NCBI GenBank assembly: GCA_947498985.1
Contig: CANMMF010000001.1
Coordinates: 211,001-275,000, forward strand
Length of the DNA: 64,000 nucleotides
Origin: an uncultured Paracoccaceae bacterium
GTDB taxonomy: Bacteria; Pseudomonadota; Alphaproteobacteria; Rhodobacterales; Rhodobacteraceae
Direction: 5' to 3'
The translations under genes and the position numbers were made by a program. The notes beneath the pieces are model-generated. The model was not told the DNA's origin. It saw only the letters and a list, made by a program, of their open reading frames with translations, and searched no databases. How positions within the stretch are numbered: position 1 is the stretch's first letter; each line of letters opens with the position of its first letter. Below are positions 54,895 to 64,000 of this stretch, piece by piece.

Positions 54895-55920
54895 ATGAAC
54901 GATCAATCGACCCTCATTGACCCCGACCTTCAGGACGCCAAAACCGTCGCCACACGTTATCTCACCGCGCTCGACGCGGCGGACCCCGCAGGGATCGAGA
55001 CGGTGATGGGCGCGCTTGTCACCCCCGGTTTCACCTGGCACGGCTATCACCCGTTCGAGCGGATCTCGGACGCGGCCGCGGTGGCGCGCGAGTTCTGGGC
55101 GCCGCTCAAAACCTCGCTCACACGCATCCAGCGCCGGCAGGACGTGTTTTTTGCCGGCCGGAACGAGATCGACGGGTTCGAGAGCATCTGGGTGGTCTCG
55201 ATGGGACATCTCATGGGCCTGTTCGATCATCCATGGCTGGGGATCCGGCCCACCCGCAAGCTCACGATGCTGCGCTATTGCACCTTCCTGCGCATCGAGG
55301 GCGACAGGGTTGCCGAAGAGGCGATGTATTTCGACATCCCGCATCTGATGATCCAGGCCGGGCAGAACCCGTTTCCGCCGCAGACCGGCGCGTCGCTTGT
55401 GCAGCCCGGGCCTCTGACCCATGACGGGTTGCTGATAGATGCGCAGCCCAAGGCCGAGGGCGAGGCCACGCTGGCGCTGATCAATGCGATGATCGCGGAT
55501 CTGGGCACCTGGAACCTGGGCCTGCCGCTCACCGAAGAGCTGGCGCGCACCTGGTCGGACGACATGCTCTGGTGGGGGCCCGCCGGAATTGGCGCCACCT
55601 ACACGATCGAGCGCTATGCCGAGCAGCATTCCGGCCCGTTCCGCGCGTCCTTTACCGACCGCGCCAAGACCAGACATGTCGCCCGTCTGGCCGAGGGCAA
55701 TTACGGCGGCTTTTTCGGCTGGCCCAACTTCACGGCCCGGCCCACCGGCGGGTTCATGGGGATGCCCGAAACCGGAAAATCCGGCGAATTCCGGGTGATC
55801 GACATCTATCGGCGCGATGGCGACAAGCTGGCCGAGAACTGGATCTTCATCGACATCCTGCTGTTCTGGAAGCAACAGGGGGTCGACATCCTCGCGCGCG
55901 CCACCGGCATCGACGCATGA
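54895..55920 (+). CDS. Double SnoaL-like (NTF2-fold) protein C
   Basis: A 341-residue protein with two NTF2-like domains. First: VATRYLTALDAADPAGIETV to MLRYCTFLRIEGDRVAEEAM; second: DDMLWWGPAGIGATYTIERY to DGDKLAENWIFIDILLFWKQ. It resembles protein B (46279) in both halves. The gene stands 19 bp after a strong terminator and overlaps the amidohydrolase gene by ATGA, so it probably needs read-through or its own start. Likely acts on the same intermediate class as A and B. Confidence 0.8.
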   Translation: MNDQSTLIDPDLQDAKTVATRYLTALDAADPAGIETVMGALVTPGFTWHGYHPFERISDAAAVAREFWAPLKTSLTRIQRRQDVFFAGRNEIDGFESIWVVSMGHLMGLFDHPWLGIRPTRKLTMLRYCTFLRIEGDRVAEEAMYFDIPHLMIQAGQNPFPPQTGASLVQPGPLTHDGLLIDAQPKAEGEATLALINAMIADLGTWNLGLPLTEELARTWSDDMLWWGPAGIGATYTIERYAEQHSGPFRASFTDRAKTRHVARLAEGNYGGFFGWPNFTARPTGGFMGMPETGKSGEFRVIDIYRRDGDKLAENWIFIDILLFWKQQGVDILARATGIDA

Positions 55921-56780
55921 GGATCGACGCCCATCACCACCTCTGGGATCTGGATGCGGTGCAGTACCCCTGGCTGATGGCCGAGGGCGTGCCGCGCTTT
56001 TTCGGCGATCCGAAACCCATTCAGCGCAACTACCTGCTCGATGAGTTCCGCCGCGATGCGGCGGGGTTTCAAGGCTCCGTGCATATCCAGGTCGGGGCCG
56101 AAGACGGGCTGGCGGAAGCGCGCTGGGTGCAGGCACAGGCGGATGCCAATCCCGATTGGCCGATGCTGCAGGTGGCGTTTTGCGATCTGACCGGGGACGG
56201 CGCGCATGAGGCGCTCGATACGCTGCAAGCGCTCCCGACCGTCAGGGGCGTGCGGCAGATCGTCGGGCGCGCGCCGGGCGAAGACGCGCTGACCGGCACC
56301 AATGATCTGCTCGACAACCCGCGGTTTTTGGAGGGCCTTGTCGACGTCGGACGGCGCGAGCTGTCCTTCGACCTTCAGCTTTTGCCCGAACTGATGGAGA
56401 AAACCGCACATGTGCTGAGCGCCGCTCCCGATACCAGGGTCGCCCTGTGCCATGCCGGATCGCCGCATGATCGCTCTGCCGCGGGATTGCGCGACTGGGC
56501 TCGGCAGTTGCGTGCGCTGTCGGATCTGCCTCAGGTCACCTGCAAGCTTTCGGGCCTGGGCATGTTCGAGCATGACTGGCACCAGGAAAGCATCCGCCCC
56601 ATTTTCGAGACCTGCCTTGAGCAGTTTGGCGCGGCGCGCTGCATGTTCGGGTCGAACTTTCCGGTCGACTCTTTGTATTCAGATTATGCACAAATTGCCG
56701 ACGCCTACGACGCCCTGATCCCCGAAGCGGTCAAGCCACAGATCTTCGGAGGTACTGCCGCCGCGTTCTACCGCTTCTGA
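55917..56780 (+). CDS. Amidohydrolase-family lactonase-like protein (COG3618 type)
   Basis: A 287-residue TIM-barrel hydrolase beginning MRIDAHHHLWDLDAVQYPWL. The N-terminal HxH motif and W-D-L-D..YPW pattern are hallmarks of the fuconolactonase / 2-pyrone-4,6-dicarboxylate lactonase group. VRGVRQIVGRAPGEDALTGT, VALCHAGSP and the terminal FGSNFPVDSLY with the catalytic Asp follow. It would open a lactone made by the dehydrogenases of this island. Its start overlaps the SnoaL C stop by 4 bp. Confidence 0.88.
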   Translation: MRIDAHHHLWDLDAVQYPWLMAEGVPRFFGDPKPIQRNYLLDEFRRDAAGFQGSVHIQVGAEDGLAEARWVQAQADANPDWPMLQVAFCDLTGDGAHEALDTLQALPTVRGVRQIVGRAPGEDALTGTNDLLDNPRFLEGLVDVGRRELSFDLQLLPELMEKTAHVLSAAPDTRVALCHAGSPHDRSAAGLRDWARQLRALSDLPQVTCKLSGLGMFEHDWHQESIRPIFETCLEQFGAARCMFGSNFPVDSLYSDYAQIADAYDALIPEAVKPQIFGGTAAAFYRF

Positions 56781-57877
56781 GGGACGAACCGCGCAGGCGA
56801 CAAGGCCTCCTGCACCTCACCCGGGATCGCCTGGCCCGAGCCTGTCACCAGGTTCGCGATGATCCGCGACAGCGCAGGCGCGGTCTGCACGCCGTAGCCG
56901 CCTTGCCCGGCCAGCCAGAAACACCCTTCGGCCTCGGTGTCTTCGCCGACCACCGGCGTCTTGTCATCCGCAAAACTGCGCAATCCGGCCCAGCTCCGCT
57001 CGACCCGGGTGACCGGGGTTGTGACGGCGCGCGCGTAGCGGTGCAGACCTTCTGCGAGCACCATGTCGTCGGGCCAGGCATCCTGCGGCGCGACCGGATC
57101 TTCGTCCGCGGGGCTCACCATGAGCCGCCCGGCATCCGGTTTGGCGTACCAGGTTTCCGCAACCGAGCCGAAGCCGGGCCACGCGCGCGTGTTCATCCCC
57201 GGCGGCGCGGGCAGGATGGCGGCGGAGCGGCGTTTCGGCGTGATCCGGATCGCCTGCGCCCCCGCCATCCGCGCCACTTCCCCGGCCCAGGCGCCCGCCG
57301 CATTCACGATGACAGGCGCCGAAAAGACCTGCGCGCCCGCACGTACCTCCCAGCGACCGGCCTTGCGTTGCAGAGCCGTGACACGCGCCCCGACGACGAT
57401 CGCACCGCCGAACCTCAGGCATAACCGCCTGTAACCGGTCAAAAGCCGGTCAACCTCGATATCCTGCGCGTCCTCTTCGTAAAGTGCGGCGTCGATCGGC
57501 TCCGGGCGCAGGATCGGCACCAGCGCCGCAGCCTCCCGCGCGGTGAGCCTCTGCAACCCGTCCGATCCGGCGGCGTAGTCGTCCAGCGCGTCCCGTTCGG
57601 CTTTTGTCGCAAGCAGCAGCAGGCCGCGCGGCTTCAGCAGCGGTGGCTCCGCGATGTCGCCCGGGTCGTCGAACAGCCGTTGCGACATCGCATTCAGGGT
57701 CCGCAGCGTCGCGTTGCCGTAGTTGCGCACGAAGATCGCGGCAGAGCGGCCGGTGCTGTGATAGCCAAGCTGCGGCTCCGCCTCGAGCAGGATCACCTTG
57801 CGGTCCCGCGCGATTTCGGCCGCCGCACCAACCCCGGCGATGCCGCCGCCGATGACAATGACATCCGCGCTTGTCAT
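56768..57877 (-). CDS. FAD-dependent oxidoreductase, DAO/DadA-like
   Basis: A 369-residue flavoprotein. N-terminal dinucleotide motif VIVIGGGIAGVGAAAEIARD, HSTGRSAAIFVRNYG soon after, VNAAGAWAGEVARMAG in the middle and a C-terminal FWLAGQGGYGVQTAPALSRI. Relatives oxidise amino acids or other amines/hydroxy acids. It converges with and overlaps the amidohydrolase gene by 13 bp, and overlaps the acetylpolyamine-amidohydrolase-like gene by 4 bp. Together they suggest polyamine or amino-acid breakdown. Confidence 0.85.
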   Translation of the reverse strand: MTSADVIVIGGGIAGVGAAAEIARDRKVILLEAEPQLGYHSTGRSAAIFVRNYGNATLRTLNAMSQRLFDDPGDIAEPPLLKPRGLLLLATKAERDALDDYAAGSDGLQRLTAREAAALVPILRPEPIDAALYEEDAQDIEVDRLLTGYRRLCLRFGGAIVVGARVTALQRKAGRWEVRAGAQVFSAPVIVNAAGAWAGEVARMAGAQAIRITPKRRSAAILPAPPGMNTRAWPGFGSVAETWYAKPDAGRLMVSPADEDPVAPQDAWPDDMVLAEGLHRYARAVTTPVTRVERSWAGLRSFADDKTPVVGEDTEAEGCFWLAGQGGYGVQTAPALSRIIANLVTGSGQAIPGEVQEALSPARFVPQKR

Positions 57878-58896
57878 CCGCCCAGATACCCCGAAAGCGT
57901 TGCGGTCAGGCAGGCGCCCAGAGTGTCGGACAGGTACCCGCCCTCCTGCACGAGCAGCACCGGTTTGCCCGTTTTGGCAATGCGCGCGCCGATCCTCGCG
58001 AACCCATCCCGCGTGACGGTCAATGCCTGGAACGGGTCGTCCTTCGACGCGTCGAGCCCCAGCGCCACAACAATCACATCTGCGCCGTACATCGAAACCC
58101 GGGCCAGTCCAGCGTCGAGCGCCTCGAGAAAAGGCACGTCGCCGCTGCCCATCGCCAGCGGCAGGTTCAGATTTGCGCCCAGCCCCGCGCCCGCTCCGCG
58201 TTCCGCCGCATGGCCCCAGAAGAACGGGTAGAAATGTGCCGGGTCCGCATGGATCGACAGGGTGAGCACATCGCCTCGCTCATAGAAGATCCCTTGCGTG
58301 CCGTTGCCATGATGCACGTCGATATCGAGGATGGCCGGACGCAACCCGGACTTGCGCAAACGCTCCGCGGCAATTGCGGAGTTGTTCAGAAAGCAGAACC
58401 CCCCGGCCTGATCGGCGTAGGCATGGTGCCCCGGCGGGCGGCACAGCACATAGGCGGACGGCCCGCCAGACAACAGGTGATCGGCCCCGGCGATGGCACT
58501 CTGCGCCGACCAATAGGCCGAAAGCCACGTCCCTTCGGCAATCGGGCAGGCGGTATCCGCCTGATGATAGCCCGCCTGCCCAACCGGCGAGGATGGATAG
58601 CTGTCGGAGCGGCTGCGCGGATGGATGTTGGGGATGACTTCGGCACTGGCGCCGGCGATGTCCGACCAGCGGCTGTGGATGTTTTGCAGGAATGTCAGAT
58701 ATTCCGCCGTGTGGATGGCGGCGATGGGCCCCAGGCCGATCTCCTTTGGTGCTTCGAAGCGGCAGCCCGCCTCTTGCGCCGCGGCTTTCAGTATCTCCGC
58801 GCGTTCGGGCACTTCGGGGTTCGGTCGGCATGTGCCGCTGACAATGAAATTCTCGGGGGCATGCGCCGTCTGCCGGTCGTCGAAAAAGGCTTTCAT
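57874..58896 (-). CDS. Acetylpolyamine amidohydrolase-like protein (histone deacetylase family)
   Basis: A 340-residue arginase/deacetylase-fold enzyme, the same length as the characterised acetylpolyamine amidohydrolase of Mycoplana. Active-site residues: RPPGHHAY (His157/His158), AILDIDVHHGNGT (zinc ligands Asp193 and His195), GLDASKDDP (third ligand Asp) and VQEGGYLSD (catalytic Tyr). It removes acetyl groups from acetylated polyamines or lysines. Start 58896 gives the family's N-terminus MKAFFDDRQTAHAPENFIVS. It is cotranscribed with the DadA-like oxidoreductase, which could oxidise the freed amine. Confidence 0.9.
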   Translation of the reverse strand: MKAFFDDRQTAHAPENFIVSGTCRPNPEVPERAEILKAAAQEAGCRFEAPKEIGLGPIAAIHTAEYLTFLQNIHSRWSDIAGASAEVIPNIHPRSRSDSYPSSPVGQAGYHQADTACPIAEGTWLSAYWSAQSAIAGADHLLSGGPSAYVLCRPPGHHAYADQAGGFCFLNNSAIAAERLRKSGLRPAILDIDVHHGNGTQGIFYERGDVLTLSIHADPAHFYPFFWGHAAERGAGAGLGANLNLPLAMGSGDVPFLEALDAGLARVSMYGADVIVVALGLDASKDDPFQALTVTRDGFARIGARIAKTGKPVLLVQEGGYLSDTLGACLTATLSGYLGG

Positions 58897-58987
58897 CCTG
58901 CTCCCCTGTGCGGCTCTCCCGTGTCTTGGATCGCAATCCGGCCAGGGATTGTCGAGGGTGCGCATCCAGCGCGGCCCCAAAAACGCC

Positions 58988-59013
58988 AAAAGCCGCCCCG
59001 GAGGACGGCTTTT
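58988..59013 (-). terminator. Terminator downstream of tRNA-fMet
   Basis: AAAAGCCG (58988-58995) and CGGCTTTT (59006-59013) form an 8-bp stem with a partly paired interior; on the minus strand it ends in TTTT. It lies 1 nt after the tRNA 3' end. Confidence 0.7.
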
Positions 59014-59014
59014 T

Positions 59015-59091
<77 letters not shown>

Positions 59092-59103
59092 ACACTTGGC
59101 GGA

Positions 59104-59132
59104 TAACTATTACGGCAAACTGCCGGGTGCAA
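59104..59132 (-). promoter_or_regulatory. Candidate tRNA-fMet promoter
   Basis: On the minus strand TTGCAC and TAGTTA are spaced by 17 bp, the -10 lying 12 bp before the tRNA. This would give the tRNA a transcript independent of the rRNA operon. Confidence 0.5.
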
Positions 59133-59187
59133 TGTCTCGCGGGCGGTTTGTGCAACTTTTTTCGCCGTTTTCTGCGTCGACTTGGCG

Positions 59188-60465
59188 TCACCCGGGCGGA
59201 ACGCAGGCTGTAACCGAGATGGTGGGGGCCGTGCCAAAGGTGGGCCCTGAGGGCATCTGTTCTATGACCCAGGTTTGCAGCGCGGAAACGTCGCCGCTGC
59301 CGCGCGAAAATCCACACAGCGTCATGCGGGTTGGCCCCGGGGGCGTCCTTTCGAGCATGTTGAACGAAAAATCCGCGTCATAGACATATTGCAATCCGCC
59401 TTTGCCGGGCGGCGTGCGGGCGCTTTGCAGGCTGGTGCCGGATGCGCCCTGAATGACCTGAACCGGCGCCCGTTCACCATTGTCATCGGCGACCTTGTAA
59501 ATCTGGAACAGGTGATCATGTCCGCTGAGTACCAGCGACGCTTTCGGCCAGGCGCGATAATGCGAATCGCGCGGGTCGCGGAACCGTCCGTACTCACTCC
59601 AGAACGGGACATGGGTGGTGATCCATGTCTCGGGTGTGTTGGTCACTTTGGAGAAATCGACCAGACGCGTGGTTGTGGCGCGCGAGGCGTTCAGAAGGTA
59701 GATGTTGAGCGCGGGGAATGCACCGGCGTCGAAGCGGATCATTTCGTCCACATGGTAGGTTTGCCGCTCGCACACCGCCAGATCCGTCACCAGACCCACC
59801 GTGGAGAAAAAGGTCGACCAGCCGACCCATCCGCGTTCATCCTGCGGCGCGCAATCCTCGTGGTTGCCGCGCACGATTACCCAGGGTGCCGCTGCAAGCA
59901 ATGGCGCGGCGGGTGCAAAAAAGTCATCCTCCCAGACCGACCAGTCGCGCAAGCGGCGCACCTTGGGGTCGGGATTGGGGTCGCAGCCTTCGACATCGCG
60001 TCCGCAATTGTCGCGATAGGTGTAGTCGCCGACATGGATCACCAGATCGGGCTCGAGCGCCGCGGCGGCGGATGCTATTTGCGGAAAGAACCAACCGGAT
60101 GTGCAATCCTGAGAGCCCGCGGGCGCATCTCGACAGCCCGTGTCGCCCAACAAAAGGATGCGGGACGGCGCTGTGGCGGCGGGAATGGTCAGTTGGGTTG
60201 GCCCCACCATCACGGTCTTTTTGTCGGAAAGTGAGACGGAGGCCTCGCACACAGTGAGGTCGGCCATCTCCGCCATCGCGCTGTCGTCGCGCTCCTGCAT
60301 CGGCAGGCCTGCTGGCGCGATATCGGCGCAGGAGGCGCTTGACGTGATGGCCCGCACGATGGCTCTGGGGCCTTCGGCAAGCTGCACCCAAGCGTAATCG
60401 GTCTGCGACGCCGCGGTGCCGGCCAGACAGGCGAGCAAAGCGGCGAGGATGTTGGGACGCTGCAT
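59188..60465 (-). CDS. Secreted metallophosphoesterase (calcineurin-like)
   Basis: A 425-residue protein with a signal peptide (MQRPNILAALLACLAGTAAS). Calcineurin-type metal motifs in order: LLLGDTG (107-110), HVGDYTY (146-148), VRGNHED (200-203), the His of ITTHVPFW (285) and SGHDHLF (315-318). It has six or more Cys pairs, fitting a periplasmic location. GGAGA precedes the chosen ATG; a longer frame upstream runs into the rRNA operon terminator and is rejected. Phosphate release from organophosphates is the probable role. It is inserted between 5S and tRNA-fMet. Confidence 0.87.
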   Translation of the reverse strand: MQRPNILAALLACLAGTAASQTDYAWVQLAEGPRAIVRAITSSASCADIAPAGLPMQERDDSAMAEMADLTVCEASVSLSDKKTVMVGPTQLTIPAATAPSRILLLGDTGCRDAPAGSQDCTSGWFFPQIASAAAALEPDLVIHVGDYTYRDNCGRDVEGCDPNPDPKVRRLRDWSVWEDDFFAPAAPLLAAAPWVIVRGNHEDCAPQDERGWVGWSTFFSTVGLVTDLAVCERQTYHVDEMIRFDAGAFPALNIYLLNASRATTTRLVDFSKVTNTPETWITTHVPFWSEYGRFRDPRDSHYRAWPKASLVLSGHDHLFQIYKVADDNGERAPVQVIQGASGTSLQSARTPPGKGGLQYVYDADFSFNMLERTPPGPTRMTLCGFSRGSGDVSALQTWVIEQMPSGPTFGTAPTISVTACVPPG

Positions 60466-60545
60466 GGATATGTCTCCGAAATCGCTTTGGGGAACTCGAC
60501 CGTGAGGCGAGCTGGTCAAAATCGAGACAAGCTTAAGGGATAAAT

Positions 60546-60583
60546 ACAAAAAGCCCAGCGCGTTGGCGCCGGGCTTTTTGTGT
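60546..60583 (-). terminator. rRNA operon terminator
   Basis: ACAAAAAGCCC and GGGCTTTTTGT flank a GC-rich interior, giving a long stem with a T-run on the minus strand 35 bp after 5S. Classical intrinsic terminator ending the rRNA operon before the phosphoesterase gene. Confidence 0.85.
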
Positions 60584-60617
60584 AACATCGTCAGAGAGAT
60601 ACGCTTGGGTTTTACTA

Positions 60618-60734
60618 GGTTTGGCGATGACCTACTCTCCCACGTCTTAAGACGCAGTACCATTGGCGCTACGGCACTTAACGGCCGGGTTCGGAATGGA
60701 GCCGGGTGTTTTGCTCGTGCTATGATCACCAAAC
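60618..60734 (-). rRNA. rrf: 5S rRNA
   Basis: On the minus strand the gene begins GTTTGGTGATCATAGCACG and ends GTCATCGCCAAACC; terminal stem GTTTGG/CCAAAC. Internal landmarks ACACCCGGCTCCATTCCGAA and GGTACTGCGTCTTAAGACGT are those of alphaproteobacterial 5S. About 117 nt. Ends are estimated to within a few bases. Confidence 0.95.
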
Positions 60735-61140
60735 CGAGAAAAACCCAAGTTCAAGTCGTCCAAGTCAGTACACTCACGGTGTATGCTTATTGTCCCAGAA
60801 GAAACCTGGCTTCTACTGGATCAAATCAAGCCTATCGGGCCATTAGTACCGGTCAACTGAACACATTGCTGTGCTTACATCTCCGGCCTATCGACGTGGT
60901 GGTCTTCCACGGCCCTCAGGGATACCTTGTTTTGAGGGGGGCTTCCCGCTTAGATGCCTTCAGCGGTTATCCTGTCCGAACATAGCTACCCTGCACTGCT
61001 GCTGGCGCAACAACAGGTCCACCAGTGGTCCGTTCACCCCGGTCCTCTCGTACTAGGGGCAACTCCTCTCAAGTATCCTACACCCACGGCAGATAGGGAC
61101 CGAACTGTCTCACGACGTTCTAAACCCAGCTCACGTACCT

Positions 61141-61177
<37 letters not shown>

Positions 61178-61247
61178 CCAGCCCCAGGATGAGATGAGCC
61201 GACATCGAGGTGCCAAACACTGCCGTCGATATGGACTCTTGGGCAGT

Positions 61248-61296
<49 letters not shown>

Positions 61297-61438
61297 CCCA
61301 CTTGGGACCACCGGATCACTATGGCCGTCTTTCGACTCTGCTCGACTTGTCAGTCTCGCAGTCAGGCTGGCTTCTGCCATTGCACTCAACGAGCGATTTC
61401 CGACCGCTCTGAGCCAACCTTCGCGCGCCTCCGTTACG

Positions 61439-61474
<36 letters not shown>

Positions 61475-61729
61475 ACGCAGGGTCCCGGATCCGGATAACG
61501 GACCGCGGTTAGACATCAAGCAGAACAAGGGCGGTATCTCAAGGGTGGCTCCCCACAGACTGGCGTCCATGGTTCAAAGCCTACCGCCTATCCTGCACAT
61601 GTTGTGCCTGATGCCAGTGCGAAGCTGTAGTGAAGGTGCACGGGGTCTTTCCGTCTAACCGCGGGGAGCCTGCATCTTGACAGGCAATTCAATTTCGCTG
61701 AGTCGATGTTGGAGACAGCGGGGAAGTCG

Positions 61730-61812
<83 letters not shown>

Positions 61813-62547
61813 TGGGCTTCAATTCAGAGCTTGCACCCCTCCTTTTAACCTTCAGGCACCGGGCAGGCGTCAGACCCTATACGTCGTCTTGCGACTTCGC
61901 AGAGCCCTGTGTTTTTAGTAAACAGTCGCCACCCCCTGGTTTGTGCCCCCGGCTCCAAGTTGCCTTGGAACCGGGCCTCCTTCTCGCGAACTTACGGAGG
62001 TATTTTGCCGAGTTCCTTCAACATCGTTCTCTCAAGCGCCTTGGTATTCTCTACCAGTCCACCTGTGTCGGTTTAGGGTACGATCTGATGGAGGTGCTAT
62101 TTCCAGGGACCAATTAGCGGCCCACCCAATCCGATAAGGGTGAACAACCTTCATGATCCGTCACAATCCTCCTGGCCCAGGAATATTAACCTGGTTCCCA
62201 TCGACTACGCCTTTCGGCCTCGCCTTAGGGGTCGGCTTACCCTGCTCAGATTAGCTTTAAGCAGGAACCCTTGGACTTTCGGCGAGAGTGTCTCTCACAC
62301 TCTTTGTCGCTACTCATGTCATCATTCTCGCTAGTGATCTCTCCACCGGATCGCTCACGCGCCGGCTTCACAGAAAGCTCCTTGTCTCCGTAACGGTCGA
62401 AACCGCTAAAGAGACAGTGAACTATGTCACACTACGCTCTGCTACCATGCCTTACGGCATCCTCAGCTTCGGCTCATGGCTTGAGCCCCGTTACATCTTC
62501 GCCGCAGGACAACTTATTTAGACCAGTGAGCTGTTACGCTATCTTTA

Positions 62548-62578
<31 letters not shown>

Positions 62579-63106
62579 TTGTTTTGGTCGTCCCACCTGC
62601 TTTCCCACTTAGCCATGAATTAGGGGCCTTAGCTGGAGGTCAGGGTTGTTTCCCTCTCCACTACGGACGTTAGCATCCGCAGTGTGTCTGCCATCTAGTA
62701 CTCCCGGGTATTCGGAGTTTGGTTAGGATCAGTAAGCCTGTGGGGCCCCATTACCCATCCAGTGCTCTACCCCCCGGGGTATTCGGATGACGCTCTACCT
62801 AAATAGATTTCGCAGAGAACCAGCTATCTCCGAGTTTGATTGGCCTTTCACCCCTAGGCACAACTCATCCCGACCTTTTTCAACAGGTGTGGGTTCGGAC
62901 CTCCAGTAAGTGTTACCTTACCTTCATCCTGGTCATGCCTAGATCACTCGGTTTCGGGTCTGATCCATCTAACTCGACGCCCTATTAAGACTCGCTTTCG
63001 CTGCGCCTACACCTAACGGCTTAAGCTTGCTAGATAGACCAAGTCGATGACCCATTATACAAAAGGTACGCCGTCACAAGACTGGACACTAATGACAACC
63101 TCCGAA

Positions 63107-63125
63107 GGTGGGTTGCAAACCCACC
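63107..63125 (-). terminator. Hairpin directly after the ORF in the intervening sequence
   Basis: GGTGGGTT-GCA-AACCCACC is a perfect 8-bp stem with a 3-nt loop abutting the stop codon of the deacylase-like ORF. No T-run follows, so it more likely protects or processes the RNA than terminates it. Confidence 0.5.
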
Positions 63126-63647
63126 CTACCGGGTCGGGACGCTGACCCTGAACTGCACCGTTTCGATGCCAGGGTTGTCGTCGTAGATTCCTGCGTTGGA
63201 CCTGTGGTCGTAACTGAGGCCGAAGCGCCATCCCTGGCGGTTCTCATAGCCCAGTTCCAGCCCTGATCGAAACTCGATCGGGCCGCCAAGGTCGAACCCT
63301 CCATTGTCGAAATATATTCCCGGCATGGAGTGCAGTTCTGCAAAGAACGGGCTGTCGCCGAATTCGATGGTGTAGGTCGAGCCGAAGCCCACCCATGTTT
63401 CACCCTCTTCGCCGACCGAAAGTCCAAATGCATTGCCGAACGGGCCGCGTTTGTGGCCCAGATCGTATCGCATATAGATTTCGCTCGCCGCGCTGGCGCG
63501 CCGTTCCAGAACCTGGCCTGCCGAAAAAGCAAGCCTCGGGGTCGTTTCCGACTTTCCGAGACATCCGGTTTCGGTGCCACAGTAATTTCTGCTCATGTCG
63601 GTCAGACCGAGAATGAGGAGCAATACTGCAAAGGTTCCATCTGCCAT
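63126..63647 (-). CDS. PagL-type lipid A 3-O-deacylase-like protein encoded inside 23S rRNA
   Basis: A 173-residue protein. The N-terminus has a short hydrophobic leader-like stretch (FAVLLLILGL). From residue ~36 the sequence alternates as in an eight-strand beta-barrel (ASEIYMRYDLGHKRGPFGNA, EFRSGLELGYENRQGWRFGL). The C-terminal YDHRSNAGIYDDNPGIETVQ contains His148, Ser150 and Glu162. The 2- and 12-residue spacings equal those of the catalytic His126/Ser128/Glu140 of Pseudomonas PagL. Known PagL enzymes sit in the outer membrane and remove a 3-hydroxyacyl chain from lipid A. A TAGGA site lies 9 nt upstream. It is in the rRNA sense, so transcription from the rrn promoter is expected. Weak points: a short leader and a non-aromatic C-terminus. 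Confidence 0.75.
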   Translation of the reverse strand: MADGTFAVLLLILGLTDMSRNYCGTETGCLGKSETTPRLAFSAGQVLERRASAASEIYMRYDLGHKRGPFGNAFGLSVGEEGETWVGFGSTYTIEFGDSPFFAELHSMPGIYFDNGGFDLGGPIEFRSGLELGYENRQGWRFGLSYDHRSNAGIYDDNPGIETVQFRVSVPTR

Positions 63648-64000
63648 CTTGAATGTCCTACCGCTTCGCTGCTTGAGGGCATGGCCCCGTGCAGTGTGTT
63701 TCGATAGACCATCTGATGGCGCAGATTGTCATTAGAGTCCAGTCAAGCTCCGACTGATTGTAGGCGTCCGGTTTCAGGTACTGTTTCACTCCCCTCGTCG
63801 GGGTGCTTTTCACCTTTCCCTCACGGTACTGGTTCGCTATCGGTCAGCAAGGAGTACTTAGCCTTCGAAGGTGGTCCTCCGATCTTCAAACAGGATTTCA
63901 CGTGTCCCGTCCTACTTAATACGTCCAATCATGCTTCCCATACGGGGCTGTCACCCACTATGGCTGACCTTTCCAGGTCATTCTGGTCACAATCATGGCT

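Follow-up and report, generated by a model that had tools for sequence, protein, structure and literature searches.

How does a gene for a predicted outer-membrane enzyme come to lie inside a ribosomal RNA (rRNA) gene, and does its host make use of it there? This question is raised by a 64,000-nucleotide (nt) stretch of DNA, here called the window, from an uncultured Paracoccaceae bacterium of the family Rhodobacteraceae (contig CANMMF010000001.1, positions 211,001 to 275,000). Its 23S rRNA gene contains an insert of 665 nt with an open reading frame (ORF) of the type of PagL, a lipid A 3-O-deacylase. In our view the insert is probably an intervening sequence (IVS) of the 23S rRNA that carries an intact and selected PagL-type gene. 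This gene is likely transcribed as part of the pre-rRNA, from which RNase III would likely release a short RNA that serves as its mRNA.

An insert within the 23S rRNA gene

The 23S rRNA gene matches Rfam RF02541 at 60822-64000 on the minus strand and is followed by the 5S rRNA gene (60619..60733, minus strand; Rfam scan). The Rfam match, the alignment of the flanks and the uninterrupted sites of relatives define the insert at 63080..63744. The 23S part 5′ of it (63745..64000) continues beyond the window, and the 3′ part occupies 60822..63079, all on the minus strand. The two flanks align to nt 272-542 and nt 551-828 of the Escherichia coli 23S rRNA, so the insert replaces nt 543-550, the tip of helix 25. 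Five related insert-free genomes have a short loop at this position. The flank alignment and the Rfam match thus agree with the initial annotation, which had placed a 665-nt insert here in helix 25. The insert is extra sequence at the tip of a 23S hairpin, absent from related genomes, and its inverted-repeat ends extend the helix, the features that characterize an IVS. No group I or group II intron family reached the Rfam gathering score in 55000-64000, a scan that a weak intron core could escape.

A block of 2,500 Ns (a gap or masked sequence) lies directly beyond the window end and hides the 5′ portion of the 23S gene; a 16S gene begins on its far side. The insert itself is gap-free. In the 48-contig genome, the search recovered the full insert once and the surrounding 23S sequence once.

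The PagL-type ORF

The ORF (63126..63647, minus strand, hence in the rRNA sense) runs from an ATG start to a TAG stop, encodes 173 amino acids and was characterized from the ORF list, Pfam, a structure model and fold comparison. An AGGA resembling a Shine-Dalgarno (SD) site was found by upstream scan 8 nt upstream of the ATG (63656..63659, minus strand), beyond the 5′ end of the insert that pairs with the 3′ end. The protein matches the Pfam family PagL (PF09411) with an E value of 5.8e-16 and 59.3 bits against a cut-off of 23. At E values up to 1, PagL is the sole Pfam family matched, and there is no match to the profile of S23p, the protein of 23S rRNA IVSs. Alignment of the insert ORFs identifies H148 (codon 63204..63206), S150 (63198..63200) and E162 (63162..63164, all on the minus strand) in the spacing H-R-S-x11-E. 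This agrees with H126, S128 and E140, the catalytic residues of PagL, and the three residues are presumably catalytic by analogy. The structure model has a predicted local distance difference test score (pLDDT) of 93.6 and forms an eight-stranded barrel like that of PagL structure 2ERV. The initial reading of an intact 173-residue protein in the rRNA sense with PagL-type spacing is therefore borne out by profile and fold alike.

In addition, the model contains an N-terminal helix at residues 5-22, which, together with two invariant cysteines, falls outside the PagL profile match. An 82%-identical protein of Maliponia aquimaris bears the submitter name Lipid A 3-O-deacylase (PagL), so submitters had already predicted such an ORF. 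On these grounds the product is a predicted PagL-type lipid A 3-O-deacylase, and its export to the outer membrane and its deacylase activity are predictions only. Alternatively, it could be an outer-membrane protein of the PagL fold with a function other than lipid A deacylation. We judge this improbable, because 2ERV ranks first in both fold comparisons and H148, S150 and E162 are invariant in all 24 distinct insert ORFs, the spacing being one residue longer in G099 (G and L numbers are our labels for genomes and loci).

A conserved end stem

Ends in the form of 19-bp inverted repeats had been described for this insert. Inverted repeats are indeed present, but those of the window insert are 25 nt long with 88% complementarity, and comparison of 24 inserts yields a conserved stem of 21 positions. 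Its 5′ arm lies at 63724..63744 and its 3′ arm at 63080..63100, both on the minus strand. Over the 24 distinct inserts, 455 of 504 cells of this stem are paired, whereas sliding the arms by 1-4 positions leaves only 147-195 of 504 paired. Pairing holds in at least 19 of the 24 inserts at nineteen positions and in 17 of them at position 12. At position 9 (63736 and 63088 in the window), 23 of 24 inserts keep a U.U mismatch among pairs that do not vary, and this mismatch may set the place at which RNase III cuts. Two-sided pair changes occur at positions 12, 15 and 18 and, once, at position 20; with so few such positions, the stem represents mostly conserved sequence and not strong covariation. 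The predicted fold of the window RNA is closed by the end stem, with a stability above that of shuffled sequences (z -8.4, 20 shuffles).

A search for the end sequences in 394 genomes of the family, allowing up to one mismatch, found the end stem in 20 genomes, namely 19 known insert genomes and G272, and in every case beside PagL. The reversed pattern, used as a control, gave zero matches in any row of the same genomes, nor was any end stem found in them without PagL. Since 20 of 20 adjoin PagL and the reversed pattern is unmatched, the association exceeds chance.

The 25 inserts compared measure 594-741 nt. Nine compact ones have only 56-68 nt before the ORF, of which 21 are the stem arm, and 19-27 nt after it. 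In L081, L019, L061, L092, L097, L199 and L201 the TGA stop overlaps the 3′ arm, which reduces the insert almost to arm, SD site, ORF and arm. The short leader bears on the idea that a working PagL gene has its own promoter in or just upstream of the insert and that the 23S gene is a neutral landing site which contributes nothing to expression. Homologues outside the rRNA must have their own expression, which speaks for such a promoter, but the compact inserts offer little room for one, and all mapped inserts have their ORF in the sense of the rRNA. We therefore consider an own promoter unlikely.

Selection and translation signals

Among the 24 distinct insert ORFs, every one of the 276 pairwise comparisons gives a ratio of nonsynonymous to synonymous differences (pN/pS) below 1, with a median of 0.39 and a highest value of 0.60. 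The deep pairs approach saturation, and the ORF may for a time have been outside the 23S gene in some lineages. The closest pair, G357 and G400, belongs to one genus with both genes in the 23S, and has a ratio of nonsynonymous to synonymous substitution rates (dN/dS) of 0.105. Differences at the three codon positions are 0.31, 0.24 and 0.58. Disabling mutations in relatives, which would speak against a functional gene, were sought in 25 complete insert ORFs, and none has a broken reading frame. As judged from these sequences, the insert ORF is under purifying selection.

SD-like sites at normal spacing are commoner than in shuffles, both before insert ORFs (15 of 24, against 6.4) and before standalone ORFs (18 of 23, against 5.1). 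The located sites begin at insert nt 45 or later, beyond the 21-nt arm, although some are weak or oddly spaced and G134 has none. RNase III cuts in the stem would thus leave the SD site on the released RNA. Moreover, no second PagL gene over the Pfam cut-off was found in 18 of the 19 insert genomes.

These results bear on a choice left by the initial annotation, between a selfish passenger that picked up a gene and an insertion used by the host. A selfish insertion with a captured, unexpressed ORF has been argued for Coxiella S23p, on grounds of an SD site lost on processing and of reductive evolution (PMC4990558), and the empty site in 15 genomes implies that the insert is dispensable to the ribosome. 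The present insert departs from that picture in its uniformly low pN/pS, invariant catalytic residues and unbroken frames, in SD-like sites that are commoner than in shuffles and lie beyond the arm, and in the lack of another PagL over the cut-off in nearly all insert genomes. A selfish origin of this kind is accordingly quite unlikely. The data favour the other option, a working host gene, because the ORF is under purifying selection, is usually the sole PagL found, and the insert ends were never seen with other cargo.

In the window insert, the stretches that separate the arms from the ORF hold two repeats, both detected on the minus strand by a genome repeat search. A dispersed palindrome (63107..63129) starts at the ORF stop codon and has similar copies at 13 other places in the genome (40 candidates scored). 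The second repeat (63655..63680) lies before the ATG, overlaps the SD-like site and is the source of its AGGA; one other similar copy is present in the genome. Similar pieces occur in L016. Such repeats may account for inserts longer than the compact form.

Distribution of the insert and state of the site

PagL inserts were found at the same 23S site in 34 assemblies, all counted sources together, which answers the comparison with relatives that the initial annotation had proposed. This total comprises 19 from a family sample, four from the genus of G357, seven from an order-wide search, G272 and three from a one-per-species scan. PagL is matched in 92 of the 394 genomes of the family sample; genomic context was examined in 58 of these (the best-scoring ones and the window's own), and 19 of the 58 carry the ORF inside the 23S at this site. 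Five of nine genomes in the genus of G357 match. The order-wide search matched 80 of 390 genomes, of which 20 new ones were examined, and among the matches listed every genome belongs to the window's family. G272 shows an arm and the PagL C-terminus, followed by a block of Ns. The scan of one genome per species returned 17 relatives, including 13 of full or almost full length with 66-84% identity, and added Aquicoccus L019, UBA2669 L020 and Salipiger L023; the coding sequence of L021 is identical to that of G395 and was counted once. In five of the 34 (G025, G349, G272, G621 and G518), Ns or the end of a contig leave the ORF incomplete. In genus g278 the insert is present in six genomes, and one, G490, has the gene elsewhere.

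The state of the site was assessed with two joined 23S flanks as query. The first junction test matched 24 of 34 genomes, and all 19 insert genomes among them showed split sites only: 20 sites with both halves in 17 genomes, and two genomes with one half. The five genomes with the gene elsewhere had seven empty sites, so that helix 25 is empty in 5 of 5 with an assembled site. The second test matched 15 of 28 genomes. Split sites were found in four genomes of the genus Roseivivax (five sites) and empty sites in ten genomes (16 sites), five of which have a standalone copy; G399 gave a partial match, and G013 a partial piece besides its empty site. Among the matched genomes of both tests, none has both empty and filled sites and none has a different insert at this site; the unmatched genomes (10 of 34 and 13 of 28) carry no verdict on site state.

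Identical copies occur in multi-operon genomes. On one 3.93-Mb contig of G316, three 23S genes each hold the identical insert, and G261 has two identical inserts. These copies also settle the question of an assembly artefact, to which the N block beside the window's 23S gene and the odd mixture of rRNA pieces in L020 might point. The same junction recurs in many independent assemblies, including that of G316 and the one-contig genome G141, and an artefact is ruled out for practical purposes by this recurrence, by the identity of inserts between operons of a single genome and by assemblies of few contigs.

Several records deserve comment. L012 (JAFKDC010000054.1) is labelled Enemella evansiae; its rRNA is like that of the window, its matching genome G002 is in the window's family, and the species label is probably wrong. 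L020 (DEMN01000010.1) is labelled Flavobacteriales and has 16S pieces 69-77% like those of L012, and the 127 nt of 23S directly after its PagL insert are ~99-100% identical to Roseobacter-type 23S. It may be a chimeric contig, or reflect transfer of the insert with its flank. N blocks of at least 2,500, either gaps or masked sequence, lie in or beside rRNA genes in L028 (4002-6501), L137, L182, L195 and L201, hiding rRNA copies from the counts.

Homologues outside the rRNA operon

Beyond what the initial annotation had considered, close homologues lie outside the 23S in other related genomes, and the gene has switched between the two places. A tree built from 64 proteins, after removal of two short rows and eight duplicates, interleaves the 21 insert with the 43 standalone proteins. 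It requires 15 location changes, at least 8 of them forced by starred branches, but its bootstrap had not converged, 23 of the 61 inner branches are open, and an equally low count was reached by 31-32 of 500 label shuffles. A single clade of insert copies, as expected from one origin and vertical descent, is rejected by the approximately unbiased (AU) test (p 3.5e-5), which indicates that the gene changed address repeatedly. Protein and 23S distances are weakly correlated (r 0.29; 40 of 2000 permutations as high) over 22 of 25 insert loci, with L020, L050 and the duplicate L127 excluded and L128 used with 525 of 1300 nt.

Searched by 21-mer, the surroundings of the 43 standalone rows of the tree showed no clear arm remnants; an arm-like 21-mer at L079 scores 15/21, the best of its 50 shuffles 13. 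Of 56 standalone loci, two (G437 and G588, of one genus) match the arm directly behind the stop codon at 7/10 and 6/10 bases, as chance may produce in 56 trials. As for a vehicle, 46 viral stretches fit a pattern and none was confirmed as phage, and six plasmid records were all below 60% identity, none covering 80%. Shared neighbours within the close clade are confined to one group of three standalone loci, and some distant standalone copies share neighbours with each other. A few standalone genes lie shortly downstream of an rrn operon: in G588 195 nt after the 5S, in G371 730 nt and in Pelagimonas phthalicica ~2 kb. L015, L018 and L067 share two downstream neighbours, about 534-2100 nt past the PagL start, which are presumably RNase III (rnc) and signal peptidase (lepB).

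Proposed expression from the rRNA operon

The place of the insert, its shared end stem, its predicted fold and the selection on its ORF are directly supported by the comparisons above, and from these we infer cleavage, translation, export and activity of the ORF product as follows. Transcription of rrn would carry the PagL-type ORF. RNase III would then cut the end stem, by analogy with the other rRNA IVSs that it excises (PMC4990558, PMC6191907), and the two 23S parts would stay together in the ribosome as working pieces. The released RNA would keep the ORF, with the SD-like site where present, and be translated, and the product would be exported to the outer membrane and trim lipid A.

Several observations weigh against this scheme. 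The N-terminal helix lacks a basic start and, by eye, does not look like an ordinary signal peptide; the ORF is unmatched in NCBIfam, and 2ERV is recovered by sequence alone with an E value of only 0.01. Nine of the 24 insert ORFs have no SD-like site by the rule used, and G141 has a second PagL gene. In addition, the excised IVS RNA of Coxiella is described as quickly degraded, and its S23p ORF as probably untranslated, processing having removed the SD site (PMC4990558).

It is possible, and we propose it tentatively, that the rRNA operon serves as an expression platform, in which pre-rRNA processing makes the PagL mRNA, lipid A remodelling tracks ribosome synthesis and the gene switches repeatedly between rRNA and chromosomal addresses. 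IVSs of rRNA are often regarded as silent or selfish, and here one holds a conventional-looking enzyme gene in many genera of one family. Should the insert RNA be translated, the processing of pre-rRNA would at the same time produce an mRNA and would couple an envelope enzyme to ribosome synthesis. Empty site, filled site and gene elsewhere form a natural series within the family, in which one can ask why the gene lives in rRNA. Annotation that masks rRNA may miss such genes.

Comparison with known systems

The initial annotation regarded a lipid A enzyme as cargo of an rRNA insert as undescribed, and a title search, with preprints and most subscription papers outside its scope, likewise found no earlier description of PagL or a lipid A deacylase in such an insert. 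The helix 9 IVSs of alphaproteobacteria are short, are not known to be coding and lie in another helix, near the 23S 5′ end. They occur in the same bacterial class as the present insert, and RNase III processing has been reported for helix 9 (PMC6191907). The coding cargo that the cited papers name for rRNA inserts comprises transposases (PMC2672173), S23p (PMC4990558) and homing endonucleases (PMC11270868). Inserts with homing endonucleases or transposases resemble ours as protein-coding inserts in rRNA genes (PMC11270868, PMC2672173), whereas here the scanned 9 kb holds no Rfam intron family, and the ORF matches only PagL in Pfam and no mobility protein.

The insert also resembles the helix 25/45 IVSs of Salmonella, Campylobacter and Coxiella, some with an S23p four-helix-bundle ORF, with which it shares the insertion at a hairpin tip and the inverted-repeat ends (PMC4990558, PMC2672173). 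The Coxiella IVS also has its ORF in the rRNA sense, and RNase III excision is a feature of that system (PMC4990558, PMC2672173). The present insert differs in its cargo, a PagL-type barrel that is under purifying selection and usually the sole PagL found, and in an SD-like site beyond the stem. With the lipid A 3-O-deacylase PagL (PF09411, 2ERV) the ORF product shares the profile, the barrel fold and H-x-S-x11-E; it departs from PagL proper in the location of its gene inside 23S rRNA and in its extra N-terminal helix and two invariant cysteines.
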